Shown here: positions 9,819-19,715 of the stretch, piece by piece
Layout: each line of letters opens with the position of its first letter
Numbering within the stretch: the first letter of the stretch is position 1
Source of the DNA: Vulcanimicrobiota bacterium
Lineage (GTDB): Bacteria; Vulcanimicrobiota; Vulcanimicrobiia; Eremiobacterales; Eremiobacteraceae
DNA: 60,660 nt
Assembly: GCA_019235715.1 (NCBI GenBank)
Contig: JAFAKE010000097.1
Span: forward strand, 1-60,660
Reading direction: 5' to 3'
Notes under the pieces: generated by a model
The model's input: the letters and a program-made list of their open reading frames with translations, nothing else
Told to the model about the DNA's origin: nothing
Databases searched by the model: none
Position numbers and translations under genes: made by a program

Positions 9819-10828
9819 AGGCACACCCCGTACGGGCCGACACCGGTCGAGACCGTCGCGCTGACCGTGTTGCTCGCCGCGTCGATCACCGAAACGTTGC
9901 TGCTGGCGAAGTTGGCGACGTACACGGTTCGCCCGTCCGCCGACGCCGCGACTCCCGCCGGATCGAAGCCGACCGCGATCTGCGCAACGACGGCTTTCTT
10001 GACGGGATCGATCACGGAGACGCCGGCGCCTTGCGTCGCGACATACACATCGCCCGTTTGCGCCGCCACTGCGATGCCGTCGGGACCTTGTCCGACGGAA
10101 ACCGACGCACTCTTGGCCAGCGTCGACGCGTTGAGGAATACGACGGCGTTGTCCACGTAGTCGAGCACGTACAGCGTCGCGTTCGCGGCGTCGACGGCGA
10201 GCTTGCTCGGTCCAAAGCCGAGTTTCGCACTCGTCTGAGTCGCGAGCGTCGCGGTATTGACGCGGACAATGTCGCCGAAGCCGAGATCGCTGACATAGAG
10301 CGTCGAGCCGTCCTTGCTGATCGCCAAGCCTTCGGGAATCGCACCGGCCGAGAACGGCGCGCCGAGCGCATCGGTCGACGGGTCGATAATCTCGATGTGG
10401 CCGGAGCTGTCGGCGACATAGGCCGCCGTTCCATTCGGATTCACGACGACATCGACGGGGCCCGGGCCGACATTGATCGGCGAACCGCTCACGCTTTGGG
10501 TCGCGATGTCGATCACCGACACGGTGTAGCTCGTCGAATTGATGACGAAGACTTTCCCGGCTGCCGCGTCGACGGCACACGCTGTGGGCGCTTTTTGCAC
10601 GGGAATCGTGGCGACGACCGCATTCGCCCCGGCCTTTACGACCGCCACCGAATTCGCGCCGGAGTTCGCCACGTAGAAAACGCCTGCCGGCGACGCGGGC
10701 GCGGTCGGCGTCGGGTTCATCCCACCTGAGGGCAGCGAGCCCGACGAACCGCTAGCGCATCCAACGGCTGCAGAGGCCGCCGGGGCACAAATCAGAAGAA
10801 CAAGAAGAGAAAGCCGTGCGCTTCTCAC
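9815..10828 (-). CDS. YVTN-family beta-propeller lipoprotein of the pqq cluster
   Basis: A 337-residue exported protein. The signal peptide ([22 protein letters not shown]) ends in a lipobox Cys, followed by a Ser/Pro linker and about seven blades with recurring motifs of the [19 protein letters not shown] type. The GTG start at 10828 overlaps the pqqE stop (GTGA), which fixes the start and shows cotranslation; longer in-frame starts lie inside pqqE. Beta-propeller proteins of this kind accompany PQQ-dependent catabolism genes in other bacteria. Likely periplasmic; the ligand is unknown. Confidence 0.88.
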
Positions 10829-11922
10829 ATGCGCCTCGGCTGTGCAGGGAGCGCTTCCGATCGAGCTATCGCCTCGTGGACGAGATGATGGTCGGGCGAG
10901 AGCGAGCACACCGGATCAGTGGCGCCGGCATCGCCTGCGAGCAGAAACGCCTGACAGCGGCAACCGCCGAAGTCGATCTCCTTGCGTTCGCACGAACGGC
11001 AGGGCTCCGGCATCCAGCCAGTGCCGCGATACGCATTGAACGCAGCCGAACGCTCCCAGATGTCGCGCAGCGTCCGCTCGCGGACTGAATCGAAGCGCAA
11101 CGATGCGATCGCGGCGGCCGCCGGACACGGCAGCACGCGACCGTCAGGAACCACCGTCATGAAACGCTGACCCCATCCATGCATGCACGGTTTCGGATAG
11201 GTCTCGTAATAGTCCGCGATCACGTGCGTGATCTCCATGACACCTCGCAGGCGGTGTTGCGCGGCGCGCACGGTCGCCGCCGCCGCCGCGACTTGTTCGC
11301 GGCTCGGCACGAGCGCGTGACGGTTGCGGAACGCCCACCCGTAGAGCTGCGCGTTGGCAAGCTCGAGCCGGCGCACGCCGAGTCTTTCGGCGAGGGCGAT
11401 GAGCTCTGCGACCGCGTCGATGTTCGCGCGGTGAAGAACGCAATTCAGCGTGAGCGCCAGACGGGCGCGCTGCACGCGGGCAAGCGCCGCCAGTTTTCGC
11501 TCGTGCACCTTCGTGCCGGCGATGTCATCGGCGACGCGCTCGTCTGCCGCTTGCACGCTGATCTGCACGTGATCGAGCCCCGCCTCGCTCAGCGCGCCGA
11601 GCAGCTCGTCGTCCAAGAACGTGCCCTGCGTGATCAAGTTCGTGTAGAGCTGGCGCGCGCGCGCCCGGCGCACGAGGCTGACCAAGAGATCGGGCCGCAA
11701 CGTCGGCTCGCCGCCTGACAGGTGGAGCTGCAGCACCCCGAGGTCCGCGGCTTGATCGACGACGCGGGCCCATTCCGATTCGTCGAGCTCGTCGCCGTAC
11801 GCGCGCAGATCGAGCGGGTTATAGCAGTACGGACATTGCAGGTTGCAGCGGTACGTGAGTTCGGCCAGCAACGAAAGCGGCTGGTGGCGGTTCACGGCTT
11901 TGCTTTTGACACGCACAGCCAT
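10825..11922 (-). CDS. pqqE: PqqA peptide cyclase (radical SAM)
   Basis: Radical SAM/SPASM enzyme that joins Glu and Tyr side chains of PqqA with PqqD as chaperone. The 365 residues show the SAM-cluster motif C26-x3-C30-x2-C33 (YRCNLQCPYCYNP), the SAM-binding GGEP (LHLSGGEPTLR), and C-terminal cysteines of the auxiliary clusters (EPCRSCERKEIDFGGCRC). The start overlaps the end of pqqD by 31 bases; the end overlaps the beta-propeller gene by GTGA. Confidence 0.97.
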   Translation of the reverse strand: MAVRVKSKAVNRHQPLSLLAELTYRCNLQCPYCYNPLDLRAYGDELDESEWARVVDQAADLGVLQLHLSGGEPTLRPDLLVSLVRRARARQLYTNLITQGTFLDDELLGALSEAGLDHVQISVQAADERVADDIAGTKVHERKLAALARVQRARLALTLNCVLHRANIDAVAELIALAERLGVRRLELANAQLYGWAFRNRHALVPSREQVAAAAATVRAAQHRLRGVMEITHVIADYYETYPKPCMHGWGQRFMTVVPDGRVLPCPAAAAIASLRFDSVRERTLRDIWERSAAFNAYRGTGWMPEPCRSCERKEIDFGGCRCQAFLLAGDAGATDPVCSLSPDHHLVHEAIARSEALPAQPRRM

Positions 11923-12176
11923 CCGCGGTCGGAAAGGCGGTCGACGAGCTCATCGACATCCGCCCGCAGCTGCACCGCGGGCACATCGTAGCGGCTCGAC
12001 AATTCCTGCGCGATCGCGCTGCACGAGCGCGCGCCGTCGACGAGCCCAAGCGTTGCAGCCGCGGACGCGTTCAGGTTGACGACGCCCTCGGGCACCAGCA
12101 AGACGGTGCGGTCCGGCAAACGGCGCAAACGAACGCCGTCGACGAAGGAAGGGATGGCATCGCGCGAAGAGCTCAC
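11892..12176 (-). CDS. pqqD: PQQ biosynthesis peptide chaperone PqqD
   Basis: A 94-residue winged-helix-like RRE protein that binds PqqA and delivers it to PqqE. The reading frame is open far upstream, but GTG 12176 sits directly after the pqqC stop and gives the normal PqqD length. Family pattern: PSFVDGVRLRRLPDRTVLLV, PEGVVNLNASAAATLGLVDG, and a C-terminal helix ending WLCVSK. Between pqqC and pqqE in the standard order. Confidence 0.92.
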   Translation of the reverse strand: MSSSRDAIPSFVDGVRLRRLPDRTVLLVPEGVVNLNASAAATLGLVDGARSCSAIAQELSSRYDVPAVQLRADVDELVDRLSDRGWLCVSKAKP

Positions 12177-12178
12177 CC

Positions 12179-12910
12179 CTATCCGATCCCATATGCGAGC
12201 TGCGTCGCGTCGAGAATCGCCCACAACACGTCGCATTTGAAATGCAGCGCCTGCACGCACGCGTGTCGCGCAGACTCGTCCGTCGCGGCTTCCAACACCC
12301 AGGGCAGCGCGTATGACGCATCTTGCGCCGCAAGGGTCACGCGATTGCGGAAATAGTCCAAGCCGGCCGGGTCGATCCATGGATAGCGCGCGAGCAGCGC
12401 CTCGATGCGCTTGCCCATCAGCTCGGGCGCGAATAACTCAGTCAGGGACGACGCGACGGCCGGCAGCCACGCCTGCGTGCGCGCGAACGTCACGTACGCA
12501 TCGACCGCGAAGCGCGTCCCCGGCTGCACGTGCGACTCAGAGCGCAGCGCCGCCTCGCTGATGCCGACGGCGCGCGCCAGTGCGAACCACTGCTCGAGTC
12601 CGCCTCCGCCCGCCTCGAGCGTGCCGTCCTGATTGAGGATACGTCTGATCCAGACTCTGCGTTTTTCGCGGTCGGGCAGATTGGACAAGATGGCGGCATC
12701 CTTGACGGGGATGTTCTTTTGATAGTAGTAGCGGTTGGCGACCCAGCCGCGCACCTGCTCGCGGTTTAACCGGCCCTCGTGCATCGCGACATGGAAGGGG
12801 TGCTTGTCATGGTAGCGCTCGGCGCCGACTGCGCGCAGGCGCGCGAGGAAACTATCGTCTACCGCCGGCTGCACTGCCGGCCTCTTTCGAAAGCGAAAAC
12901 GCCAGCCCAT
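12179..12910 (-). CDS. pqqC: Pyrroloquinoline-quinone synthase PqqC
   Basis: Cofactor-free oxidase for the final ring-closing eight-electron oxidation to PQQ. The 243-residue protein has family motifs including RYHDKHPFHVAMHEG, RGWVANRYYYQKNIPVKDA and RILNQDGTLEAGGGGLEQW. These contain the active-site His, Arg, Tyr and Lys residues described for PqqC. The ATG lies 59 bases inside the pqqB end; an in-frame start nearer the pqqB stop cannot be excluded. Confidence 0.96.
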   Translation of the reverse strand: MGWRFRFRKRPAVQPAVDDSFLARLRAVGAERYHDKHPFHVAMHEGRLNREQVRGWVANRYYYQKNIPVKDAAILSNLPDREKRRVWIRRILNQDGTLEAGGGGLEQWFALARAVGISEAALRSESHVQPGTRFAVDAYVTFARTQAWLPAVASSLTELFAPELMGKRIEALLARYPWIDPAGLDYFRNRVTLAAQDASYALPWVLEAATDESARHACVQALHFKCDVLWAILDATQLAYGIG

Positions 12911-13781
12911 CCTCGGCGATGATCCACCCTGCGTCGCGCACCGCTCGCGCCGCGTCAGAGCCTGGGTCGATCACGGGATTGGTGTTGTTGACGTGGGTGT
13001 AATATCGATGTTTGCCGCCAAGGCCGACGGCCGCGGAGAGCGTGCCGCCATCGCCCGAGATGGGAAGATGCCCCATTTGACGCGACGTTCGCGTGCCCAA
13101 CGCCTGCACCGAAAGCTCGTGCTCGGCCCAAAACGTTCCGTCGAGAAACACGGCGTCTGCCAGCGCCAGCTCGCGCCGCAGCGGGTCGGTCATCGCGCCG
13201 ACGCAGGGCGCATAGAGCAAGCGGTGAGCGCCGTCGTTTATCAAAATGCCCGCTGCTGCGCCGGCGACGTCGCGCCCGCCGTCGTATTGCGGTGTGAGTC
13301 CGCCGACGTCGATGCCGCGCACGCGCAAGCCGACCGGCAATCCGCTCGCATCGTTGACATGCACCGGCGAGTCGCCGATGATGTGCCACGAATGCGGGGG
13401 CTTTGCGAATGGGCGAAGCGCGCTGCAGCCGGCGAGCAAGACGTCGCGAACGGTCTCGGTGGAATAGATCGAGAGGCGGTCAGCTTGACGCAACTCCAAA
13501 AGACCAAAAGCGTGATCGATATTCGCGTCGGACAACACGACGGCGGAAATGGGCGAACGGCGCGGCGGCTGCGGCGCGAGCTTTTCGAACGCAAGGATCT
13601 GGTGGCGGATATCCGGCGTGGCGTTGGCGATCAGCCAGCGTTCGCCGTCCGCAGAGACCGCAAGCGAGGCCTGCAAGCGACGCGACTGCGCTTTCGAACG
13701 CGCCGCATTGCAATGCGCGCAGGCGCAGTTCCATTGCGGCAGACCGCCACCGGCTGCCGAACCGAGCACTCGTATGTGCAT
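12852..13781 (-). CDS. pqqB: PQQ biosynthesis protein PqqB (metallo-beta-lactamase fold)
   Basis: A 309-residue metallo-hydrolase-fold protein, proposed from work on other PqqBs to hydroxylate the tyrosine-derived intermediate. It begins MHIRVLGSAAGGGLPQWNC with a CxCxxC site (CACAHC) typical of PqqB, and has the degenerate metal-site motif SDANIDHAFGLLEL. ATG start, 62 bases after pqqA. The 3' end overlaps pqqC. Confidence 0.96.
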   Translation of the reverse strand: MHIRVLGSAAGGGLPQWNCACAHCNAARSKAQSRRLQASLAVSADGERWLIANATPDIRHQILAFEKLAPQPPRRSPISAVVLSDANIDHAFGLLELRQADRLSIYSTETVRDVLLAGCSALRPFAKPPHSWHIIGDSPVHVNDASGLPVGLRVRGIDVGGLTPQYDGGRDVAGAAAGILINDGAHRLLYAPCVGAMTDPLRRELALADAVFLDGTFWAEHELSVQALGTRTSRQMGHLPISGDGGTLSAAVGLGGKHRYYTHVNNTNPVIDPGSDAARAVRDAGWIIAEDGLAFSLSKEAGSAAGGRR

Positions 13782-13843
13782 GGTATCTCGTGGACGCGCA
13801 GCAGCGCCGCGCCGCCCTCACGCCTTTCGCCGGGTTGAAGGTT

Positions 13844-13945
13844 CTAGACGGCTGTCGGCTCGTCGGCCGGCGCGGTGCCGAGGTATGCGGTCACTTCGGC
13901 GCCGAGCGCGACGTGCTCGAAATCGGGTCTCTCCCAGGCTTCCAT
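13844..13945 (-). CDS. pqqA: PQQ precursor peptide PqqA
   Basis: A 33-residue ribosomal precursor of PQQ. The peptide MEAWERPDFEHVALGAEVTA continues into Y and a 12-residue tail. Glu17 and Tyr21 in EVTAY have the invariant E-x3-Y spacing crosslinked by PqqE. The MEAWERPDFE opening also matches the MxWxxPxF pattern of known PqqA peptides. The gene is normally missed because it lies at the end of a longer frame and overlaps the 3' end of the cytochrome c gene by 55 bases. Confidence 0.93.
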   Translation of the reverse strand: MEAWERPDFEHVALGAEVTAYLGTAPADEPTAV

Positions 13946-14514
13946 AACGCAGATGTTCGAGCCGCCGAAGGCGGACCCTTGCGCCCCGCGCTGCCGCTCT
14001 GACTTGGCAGCTTCTTCCAAGCGGCTTGCGCTGCGGCCGGCAGCGAATCCATGTGTTTGAGGAACATCGCCAGCTGCCAGATCTGCTCGTCGTCGAGCGC
14101 GCGCGCGAACGAGGGCATGCCGGTCAGGCGGATACCGTGATCGATCTTCCAATAGGTCTCGCCCTCTGGATCGTCTTCGACGCCATGCTTGCCGAATTGC
14201 GGCGCGTGCTGATACAGGCCGAGCGCGATGTTCGAGCCTTGGCCGTCAGAGGCGCCGTGGCAGACCATGCAGTTATCCGCGTAAAGCTTGATGCCGGCTT
14301 CGAGATTGGCGTCATTCAAAGCAAGCGGGTCGGGCTGTTTCGGAGCATCGCGCGCGACCGTCGCGCGCAGCGACGTGCCGGCGGCCCAGCGTTCCAACGA
14401 GCTCGGTTTCGCATCGGCATTCGCTGGCACGAGCCCGAAGCGCACTGCGAGCAGCGCCACGATCGCTGCCAGCGCAAGCGTCACCAGACCTCCGGCGACC
14501 ATATTTCGGATCAT
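13891..14514 (-). CDS. Membrane-anchored class I cytochrome c
   Basis: A 207-residue protein with an N-terminal signal anchor (about residues 5-30) and a single heme site C82-x2-C85-H86 (NCMVCHG). The likely Met ligand is in LTGMPSFA and the family helix in DDEQIWQLAMFLKHM. Probably faces the periplasm and takes electrons from a PQQ enzyme or passes them to an oxidase. The last 40 or so residues are low-complexity and read through the start of pqqA, an unusual overlap that probably couples the two genes. First gene of the pqq operon in this reading. Confidence 0.88.
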   Translation of the reverse strand: MIRNMVAGGLVTLALAAIVALLAVRFGLVPANADAKPSSLERWAAGTSLRATVARDAPKQPDPLALNDANLEAGIKLYADNCMVCHGASDGQGSNIALGLYQHAPQFGKHGVEDDPEGETYWKIDHGIRLTGMPSFARALDDEQIWQLAMFLKHMDSLPAAAQAAWKKLPSQSGSAGRKGPPSAARTSALWKPGRDPISSTSRSAPK

Positions 14515-18060: not shown

Positions 18061-18549
18061 ATGCGACTGCGGCCCTCGCACGTTCCTGCTCTTGTCGCCG
18101 GCATGGTAGCTGCGCTAAGTTCGGCCTGCACGCCGGGCGCAGCGACCACGCCGAGCGGCGCGTCGCGCGCGCCCATCTCCGGTGCGGTGGTCGTGCACGT
18201 CAGCCTGCTCAAGTACGGTCCGCTCTCGACTGCGTTCGGGACCGTCGCCGGCTACAGTCCGGATCCGCTCACCGTCCCGGTGGGTTCGATCGTCCAGTTC
18301 GTCAACGACGACAACTTCACGCACACCGCGAGCTCGGTCGGCAGCAGCGGCTTTCCCGCGGGCAATCCGCTGAGCTCGGTGGCGCAAACTCCAAGCGGTG
18401 TCGATCTCGCTTCGCCCGCCTGGTCATCGGGCAACATCGCCGGCGGCTCGCTCTCGCAGGGCTTCACCGCGTCAACGCCCGGCACGTATTATTACGGATG
18501 CTTCTATCACTTCGGCTCGCCGATGCGCGGCGTCATCGTCGTTCAATGA
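18061..18549 (+). CDS. Cupredoxin (plastocyanin-like) lipoprotein
   Basis: A 162-residue exported blue-copper protein. The signal peptide ends in LSSAC (Cys23 as probable lipid site), then a low-complexity linker and a cupredoxin domain (about 65-162). The copper ligands are visible: His88 in FTHTAS and Cys147-x2-His150-x4-Met155 in GCFYHFGSPM, the plastocyanin spacing. It should carry one electron in the periplasm. Its stop overlaps the ATG of a cytochrome-porin gene (ATGA), so the two are strictly coupled. Confidence 0.9.
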   Translation: MRLRPSHVPALVAGMVAALSSACTPGAATTPSGASRAPISGAVVVHVSLLKYGPLSTAFGTVAGYSPDPLTVPVGSIVQFVNDDNFTHTASSVGSSGFPAGNPLSSVAQTPSGVDLASPAWSSGNIAGGSLSQGFTASTPGTYYYGCFYHFGSPMRGVIVVQ

Positions 18550-19715
18550 CTTTCCAATTGCGCTCGCTTTGCGCCGCTGTACTCTTCGCGGTTGTGCTCT
18601 TCGTTGTCTGCGCGCGCCAGGTTCGGGCGACGCCGATCTTCGCGCAGCGCTATGGGTTCAAGTGTTCCGTCTGCCATACGGTCATCCCGGAACTCAATGA
18701 ATTCGGCGAGCACTTCCGCCGAGCGGGTTTCTATCTGCCGGACACGCCCCGCCGTGGATATTTTCCGCTCGTGCTGCGCTTTCAGGAATCCTACGTGAAG
18801 GATCTTCTGCCATCGCAAACGCGCCGGTTCAATGCCCTCGCCATTCTCATCTCGACCGCAAACTTCGGCAAGGATCAATCGTACTCGTATTTCGCGCGCT
18901 ATTTCTTCGGCAGCCAAGGCGCGCCCGGAAGCCTGTACTACGCCTACGTGCAGCACGTGCATGCGAGCACGGGAGCGTTCGAACGCATTGGAGAGTTCAA
19001 CTTGCCGCTCATCCAGAACGCGACTCAGCGGCTCGACACGCTCACTCCGCAGGAAGCATATACGTACACGGTGGGCCACAATGATGCCAATTTCACGACG
19101 CCTCGTTGGGGCGTGAACTTCGGGCAACGCACCGACCGGCTCGATGTCGAAGTGGCCGCATCGTTCGACGAATATCGCGGCGCCGCGTACGGTGTGCCTG
19201 CGCCGCCGTCGGATTTCGCGCAGAGCTTCGCAGGCCCCGAGGTCTTTGCGACCGCGAACGAGCAGATCGCACCGGGGTTACGCGTAGGCGCGCTCGGGCT
19301 TTCTGGGGCGCGACTGTTCCAGTCGCGCTCCAGCGGCGCTTCGTTCACCGATCGCTACGAGCGCGAGGGAGTCGAAGTTCAATGGCAGTGGCGGCGCGTC
19401 GATCTCTACGCGCAACAGCTGTGGGGTCAGGACGACGATTCCGACGGATTTAATCATGTGACGGGGTCGAGCGGCGGCTTTGTCACGCTCAAGTACTATC
19501 CGGTGCCGCACGCCTACGTCGGCGTGCGCTACGACGCCGTCGCCAATCCGTTTGTGACGCGCGACTTCGTCTACTATCTCGCGTTCGCGCCCACCATGCA
19601 CGCGCGCTTCCTCATCGAGCAGTTCCAGCCGGTCGGTCCCGGGTTTGCGAACACGAGTGCGCAGATCCTCATCGCACTGCCCTTTGAAGGCCGCAACGCG
19701 AAGGGCCCAAAATAA
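18546..19715 (+). CDS. Cyc2-like fused cytochrome c-outer membrane porin
   Basis: A 389-residue exported protein. After a signal peptide (about 1-28) comes FAQRYGFKCSVCHTVIPELN with one heme site C40-x2-C43-H44, then FGEHFRRAGFYL. This FAxxxGxxCxxCH...PELxxFGxxFxxxGY layout is that of Cyc2-type cytochromes, in which a small heme domain plugs a porin. The rest (about 75-380) is rich in alternating aromatic strands ending near QILIALPF, consistent with a barrel of about 16 strands. ATG 18546 overlaps the cupredoxin stop. Iron oxidation is not shown; other substrates are possible. Confidence 0.8.
   Translation: MTFQLRSLCAAVLFAVVLFVVCARQVRATPIFAQRYGFKCSVCHTVIPELNEFGEHFRRAGFYLPDTPRRGYFPLVLRFQESYVKDLLPSQTRRFNALAILISTANFGKDQSYSYFARYFFGSQGAPGSLYYAYVQHVHASTGAFERIGEFNLPLIQNATQRLDTLTPQEAYTYTVGHNDANFTTPRWGVNFGQRTDRLDVEVAASFDEYRGAAYGVPAPPSDFAQSFAGPEVFATANEQIAPGLRVGALGLSGARLFQSRSSGASFTDRYEREGVEVQWQWRRVDLYAQQLWGQDDDSDGFNHVTGSSGGFVTLKYYPVPHAYVGVRYDAVANPFVTRDFVYYLAFAPTMHARFLIEQFQPVGPGFANTSAQILIALPFEGRNAKGPK

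Follow-up and report, generated by a model that had tools for sequence, protein, structure and literature searches.

Cyc2 is widely used as a genomic marker for iron oxidisers. This fused cytochrome-porin iron oxidase of Acidithiobacillus and Mariprofundus combines a CXXCH plug and a PXL motif with a predicted 16-strand barrel (PMC8406198), and a sequence upstream of its heme site, AXPXFAR[Q/K][T/Y], has been described as unique to Cyc2 (Keffer et al., 2021; PMC8406198). The rus operon of Acidithiobacillus has the order cyc2-cyc1-cup-coxBACD-rus, and in MtrAB, PioAB and MtoAB a multihaem cytochrome has as its partner a distinct and larger barrel, with about 26 strands (PMC10654088). A Cyc2-like gene recognised by BLAST has also been reported from Eremiobacterota, the phylum considered here, in Cabin Branch MAG 15 from acid mine drainage; the available text of that report gives only the presence of the gene and does not describe pairing with a cupredoxin (PMC8357290). 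We found here, in a window of 60,660 nucleotides (the whole stretch of DNA that was analysed) from a Vulcanimicrobiota bacterium, overlapping genes for a cupredoxin, P1, and a putative heme-plugged barrel, P2 (Table 1). The observation of the P1-P2 pair is confirmed as real, conserved and informative, and the two proteins probably constitute a two-protein outer-membrane electron conduit of Eremiobacterota that runs from heme to copper.

Table 1. Positions of the P1-P2 features in the window, and of related heme-barrel loci elsewhere.
Feature	Position	Strand	Basis and proposed role
P1, type-1 cupredoxin lipoprotein, 162 aa	18061..18549	+	ORF, PF00127, AlphaFold, Foldseek; proposed periplasmic electron acceptor
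P1 lipobox cysteine C23	18127..18129	+	C23-T24 invariant (44 orthologues); proposed lipidation site
P1 copper ligand H88	18322..18324	+	Invariant (44 orthologues)
P1 copper ligand loop C147-x2-H150-x4-M155	18499..18525	+	C147, H150 and M155 invariant columns (44 orthologues)
ATGA overlap of P1 stop (TGA) and P2 start (ATG)	18546..18549	+	Sequence; proposed translational coupling
P2, predicted heme-plugged outer-membrane barrel, Cyc2-like, 389 aa	18546..19715	+	ORF, AlphaFold, Foldseek matches to porins
P2 N-terminal plug with P48-E-L50	18627..18707	+	Invariant residues (46 orthologues); homologous to Cyc2-like plug
P2 single heme c site C40-S-V-C43-H44	18663-18677	+	CXXCH in plug
P2 predicted 16-stranded barrel, residues 75-376	18768..19673	+	AlphaFold secondary structure
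P2 barrel loop G-x-D-x-[DN]-x-D-G, residues 294-301	19425..19448	+	Conserved (46 orthologues)
Second heme barrel of the window's own genome, with a coupled CuA-type cupredoxin; COX1 and COX2 ahead of it	L094 4126-8092 (G000:C61)	-	
Subfamily B barrels with a YceI-like gene	L095, L098, L130, L131, L135, L137, L138, L140, L142, L146		

P1 has the features of a type-1 cupredoxin. It matches Pfam PF00127 (E 1e-4, above the gathering cut-off), Foldseek matched its AlphaFold model (pLDDT 88.5) to amicyanin and plastocyanin at probability 1.00, and the His, Cys, His and Met ligands are all present in the predicted cupredoxin fold. The initial annotation had named a blue-copper domain with complete ligands, and H88, C147, H150 and M155 bear this out, as does the fold insofar as it is modelled. 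It had also called the protein a lipoprotein, which agrees with the conservation of the lipobox cysteine in orthologues; a lipobox-like cysteine is found in 49/49 loci with an intact P1 gene. The fold and the plastocyanin-like C-x2-H-x4-M loop are those of plastocyanin/amicyanin-type cupredoxins, from which P1 differs in being a probable lipoprotein and in having a gene that overlaps one for a heme-plugged barrel. The ligand loop of rusticyanin is C-x4-H-x4-M. P1 has C147-x2-H150-x4-M155 instead, and the parallel with rusticyanin in the initial annotation is not supported by this loop.

The heme c site of P2, a protein whose sequence includes ATPIFAQRYGFKCSVCH, lies within the N-terminal segment ATPIFAQRYGFKCSVCHTVIPEL. 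It is the only CXXCH of the protein and follows a predicted helix at residues 2-21, the signal peptide being judged by eye. The N-terminal heme plug already recognised at the outset (CSVCH, residues 40-44) is conserved in 46 orthologues; the residues without exception in that alignment are A28, P30, F32, A33, R35, Y36, C40, C43 and H44, followed by P48, L50, N51, F53 and G54. A sixth heme ligand is not obvious, as neither a Met nor another His is invariant among the same 46 sequences. An AlphaFold model based on this alignment contains 16 long strands (pLDDT 81.6, pTM 0.80); it was built without heme and is of low confidence in the plug region (residues 23-50). Porins are the best matches to the model in the PDB by Foldseek (OmpF, OmpC, AlgE, DcaP and OmpM1; E ~1e-6 to 1e-7, probability 1.00, TM ~0.5), so that the barrel-like remainder of the initial annotation, which had been made to hinge on prediction of a barrel, is indeed predicted as one. 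Sequence searches of the PDB returned only noise for P2, as they did for one Cyc2-like reference, and neither Pfam nor NCBIfam holds a model that covers it. Within the barrel, the loop at residues 294-301 (G294, D296 and D300 invariant and G301 nearly so in the 46 orthologues) may possibly bind a metal.

The pairing of the two genes is conserved well beyond the window. Scanning 84,980 genomes with an alignment of the family yielded 50 confirmed loci, whereas a single-sequence scan of genome contigs gave no confirmed relatives. Nearly all of these loci are titled Candidatus Eremiobacterota or Eremiobacteria, and one is labelled Proteobacteria. Some relative of P2 occurs in 60 of 61 genomes of the class, and a close orthologue (E <=1.5e-60) in 35. 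A cupredoxin gene lies directly upstream of the close orthologue in all 35 genomes and of P2 in 49 of the 50 confirmed loci, the contig of the remaining locus (L046) starting inside the cupredoxin gene; this conserved adjacency excludes a chance pairing. The ATGA by which the cupredoxin stop had been said to overlap the porin start is present at 18546, with both reading frames placed as first described. As regards how often the coupled pair occurs, which the initial annotation had proposed to survey, an overlapping or abutting P2 start is available in most orthologous loci, start codons being inferred: part of the window's family has it as ATGA or GTGA, and other loci often as a TTG inside the end of P1. 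G002, a neighbouring genome from the same genus (97% complete), has no P2 orthologue, and the distribution of the pair is therefore patchy. Cupredoxin copies also occur alone, as in genome G059, where a P1-like gene lacks an adjoining P2; the reverse, P2 without a cupredoxin, was not seen among close P2 orthologues.

The Eremiobacterota class holds several subfamilies of heme barrels, and their neighbours bear on how the pair is to be read. In the FAQAYG subfamily, 21 of 26 sampled members have directly upstream a small cupredoxin gene with a CuA-type loop (C-x3-C-x3-H-x2-M), which overlaps the barrel gene by four bases at three loci (L105, L106 and L128). COX1 and COX2 lie near several FAQAYG loci, including the one in the window's own genome. 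For barrels of other subfamilies, a multicopper oxidase comes next in 7/52 sampled cases. A rule by which every heme barrel has a copper partner was considered, but subfamily B argues against it, ten of its barrels being followed by a YceI-like gene and not by one for a copper protein; roughly one in four sampled paralogues lacks all the partners tested. Most Eremiobacterota heme barrels nevertheless have a copper redox protein encoded next to them, which may be a CuA-type or type-1 cupredoxin or a multicopper oxidase, with the YceI-like subgroup as the main exception, and this linkage is our main reason for reading P1-P2 as a route of electron transfer from heme to copper.

We infer the location of such a conduit, its loading with heme and copper, the direction of flow, the donor and the final acceptor as follows. 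P2 would sit in the outer membrane as a barrel, with one heme c held by the N-terminal plug. An electron would be given to this heme by a small reductant entering the pore, or by a reduced surface outside, and Fe(II) is by analogy one possible donor. The heme would then pass the electron on the periplasmic side to the lipid-anchored P1, made together with P2 by way of the overlapping genes, and from P1 it would reach a CuA-type oxidase or a periplasmic carrier. The conduit-like arrangement that the initial annotation had seen in the two genes (heme plug, barrel and coupled lipoprotein cupredoxin) is kept across the class. We favour the conduit because the adjacency of the pair is conserved together with the copper ligands, lipobox, heme site and barrel, and because cupredoxin and porin-like barrel folds are predicted for the two products. 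It is favoured too by the homology of the plug to Cyc2-like proteins encoded near c-type cytochromes (and in one case near a HiPIP), by the coupling of paralogous barrels to CuA-type cupredoxins or multicopper oxidases, and by the window's own genome, which has two COX1 genes, one of them with a SCO1 gene close by, and encodes a cytochrome c assembly protein. Several points count against it: P2 lacks a Pfam or NCBIfam model, its plug is modelled with low confidence and its sixth heme ligand is not evident; in the window's family the pair is bare, with no adjoining cytochrome or oxidase; the SCO1/SenC and extra cupredoxin genes of fuller clusters could mean copper handling; and the YceI-like neighbours of ten subfamily B barrels, together with the paralogues that have no tested partner, fall outside the pattern.

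The relationship of P2 to Cyc2 is close in anatomy and distant in sequence. Our references for this comparison were five uncharacterised proteobacterial Cyc2-like proteins from plasmids, all encoded near a c-type cytochrome gene and one also near a HiPIP. A profile of the five matches P2 with E 2.6e-14, chiefly over the plug, and hhalign aligns P2 with the Cyc2-like profile (97.9%, E 4.6e-13) over the plug and first strand only. We regard the homology of the plug to these proteobacterial proteins, as judged from sequence, as real. P2 also has several of the features by which Cyc2 is defined, namely PXL just after the heme site (P48-E49-L50), a single N-terminal CXXCH behind a by-eye signal peptide, and a length of at least 365 aa (389 in P2) with a fused barrel predicted to have 16 strands. 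The strict signature is the exception: P2 reads ATPIFAQRY and its orthologues A[VIT]P[IL]FA[QE]RY, so that the pipeline of Keffer et al. would have excluded the family. In trees P2 forms a single clade (100/100). It groups with the other heme barrels of Eremiobacterota, and a branch of about 2.4-2.5 changes per site lies between it and the five uncharacterised references. P2 thus seems to have the anatomy of a Cyc2-type heme barrel while falling outside Cyc2 on one defining motif, and its first description as a Cyc2-like cytochrome-porin stands for the homologous plug, the heme site and the predicted barrel but not for the strict signature or for placement among the references, P2 being a clade of its own. 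It further differs from Cyc2 in a barrel sequence that is not recognisably similar and in a partner that is a directly coupled lipoprotein cupredoxin. As in the rus operon, a heme barrel and a cupredoxin are encoded together, and the paralogous pair of the same genome even adjoins CuA oxidase genes; the window's pair, in contrast, lacks a Cyc1-like cytochrome, a rusticyanin-type loop and an adjoining oxidase. With MtrAB, PioAB and MtoAB the pair would share a path for electrons through an outer-membrane barrel, but P2 has one heme site fused to a predicted 16-strand barrel, and no separate large barrel accompanies its single CXXCH.

These comparisons bear directly on whether P2 is a true Cyc2-type oxidase that oxidises dissolved Fe(II) in its pore, with P1 acting as rusticyanin. 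We consider this somewhat unlikely, although, as a narrower form of the conduit reading, its probability overlaps with that of the conduit. The homologous plug with CXXCH and PXL, the length above 365 aa, the predicted 16-strand barrel and the cupredoxin partner all fit such an enzyme, as does the earlier Cyc2-like gene in one acid-mine-drainage Eremiobacterota MAG, as given in the available part of that report (PMC8357290). It fits less well with the failed signature, the separate clade, the confinement of similarity to the plug, and a copper loop unlike that of rusticyanin. Many hosts, moreover, come from palsa and other non-mine metagenomes, and RuBisCO was not found in the window's own genome, which leaves a RuBisCO-based iron autotroph unsupported.

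Loci outside the window's family usually hold the pair in a recurring conserved cluster made up of a divergent receptor-like gene (CarboxypepD_reg), a TPR protein, often an extra cupredoxin, SCO1/SenC, P1, P2, a response regulator and a histidine kinase. Among 67 loci, in which some genomes are counted twice because two overlapping collections were used, the cupredoxin is present in 66, the regulator in 46, SCO1 and the TPR gene in 45 each, the kinase in 41 and the receptor in 28. SCO1/SenC is sometimes joined to a cupredoxin, and single-ORF proteins that combine a cupredoxin profile match with a SCO1 domain lie at L067 6468-7556 (+) and L076 6420-7493 (+). The window's family has the pair alone. 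We considered and rejected a larger operon around it, as its neighbours (recombinase, membrane protein and peptidase) are unlike the fuller clusters.

The fuller clusters could be taken to indicate a copper module, in which the barrel would be a pore for copper or a copper chelate, the heme would change the oxidation state of copper, and the cupredoxins and SCO1 would handle the metal under two-component control. It is the SCO1 and regulator genes of these clusters that keep such a module in play, along with the extra cupredoxins, the receptor-like gene and the proteins in which cupredoxin and SCO1 are fused; we nonetheless judge it unlikely. The cluster is missing in the window's own family, which has the pair by itself; no copper pore is known to include a covalent heme plug; the paralogues are linked to multicopper oxidases and to CuA oxidase genes; and CuA sites, too, usually receive their copper from SCO1.

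Elsewhere in the window, at 10825-14514 (-), lie genes for PQQ biosynthesis (a pqqE-like radical SAM/SPASM protein, a pqqC-like TENA/PQQC protein and a pqqB-like protein of the beta-lactamase fold). A cytochrome c (CBB3-type) gene lies immediately upstream of them, and a quinoprotein dehydrogenase system is to be expected in this host. Nothing in the sequence fixes the direction of flow, and these genes make periplasmic electron sources likely, but an outward conduit or redox balance, in which electrons from periplasmic dehydrogenases would leave by way of P1 and the heme barrel for an acceptor outside, is very unlikely, as the CuA-oxidase linkage of the paralogous pair points inward, to O2, and one heme paired with a copper protein of presumably high potential would make a poor way out.

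P1-P2 varies the theme of Cyc2-like heme barrels by a copper partner of its own, and on the conduit reading wiring of the same kind recurs across the phylum. The constancy of the copper partner suggests a general arrangement in which a copper protein would take electrons from a single-heme barrel, and which exists in several paralogous versions. The pair is also present in a genome (G014) tentatively identified as that of Vulcanimicrobium alpinus WC8-2, which thus appears to carry it. According to the available text of its description, WC8-2 is the first cultured member of the phylum; it did not grow lithoautotrophically with sulfide, thiosulfate or H2, the only inorganic donors named there as tried, and the authors could not identify the electron donor for its phototrophy (PMC9758169). 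With the pair apparently present in V. alpinus, the question can be taken to a living culture. It is a distinctly doubtful extension of these results that Eremiobacterota have their own class of single-heme conduits wired to copper proteins and not to periplasmic cytochromes, and that P1-P2 supplies the donor path for aerobic phototrophy in V. alpinus.

The P2 group is widespread in an almost uncultured soil phylum, and a search with the strict Cyc2 signature would miss it, while a loose Cyc2 search might wrongly call P2 an iron oxidase. At L042 5839-7341 (+), on a plasmid of Caballeronia sp. SBC1, the annotated start of a Cyc2-like gene falls after the CXXCH, and the annotated protein therefore lacks its heme plug.
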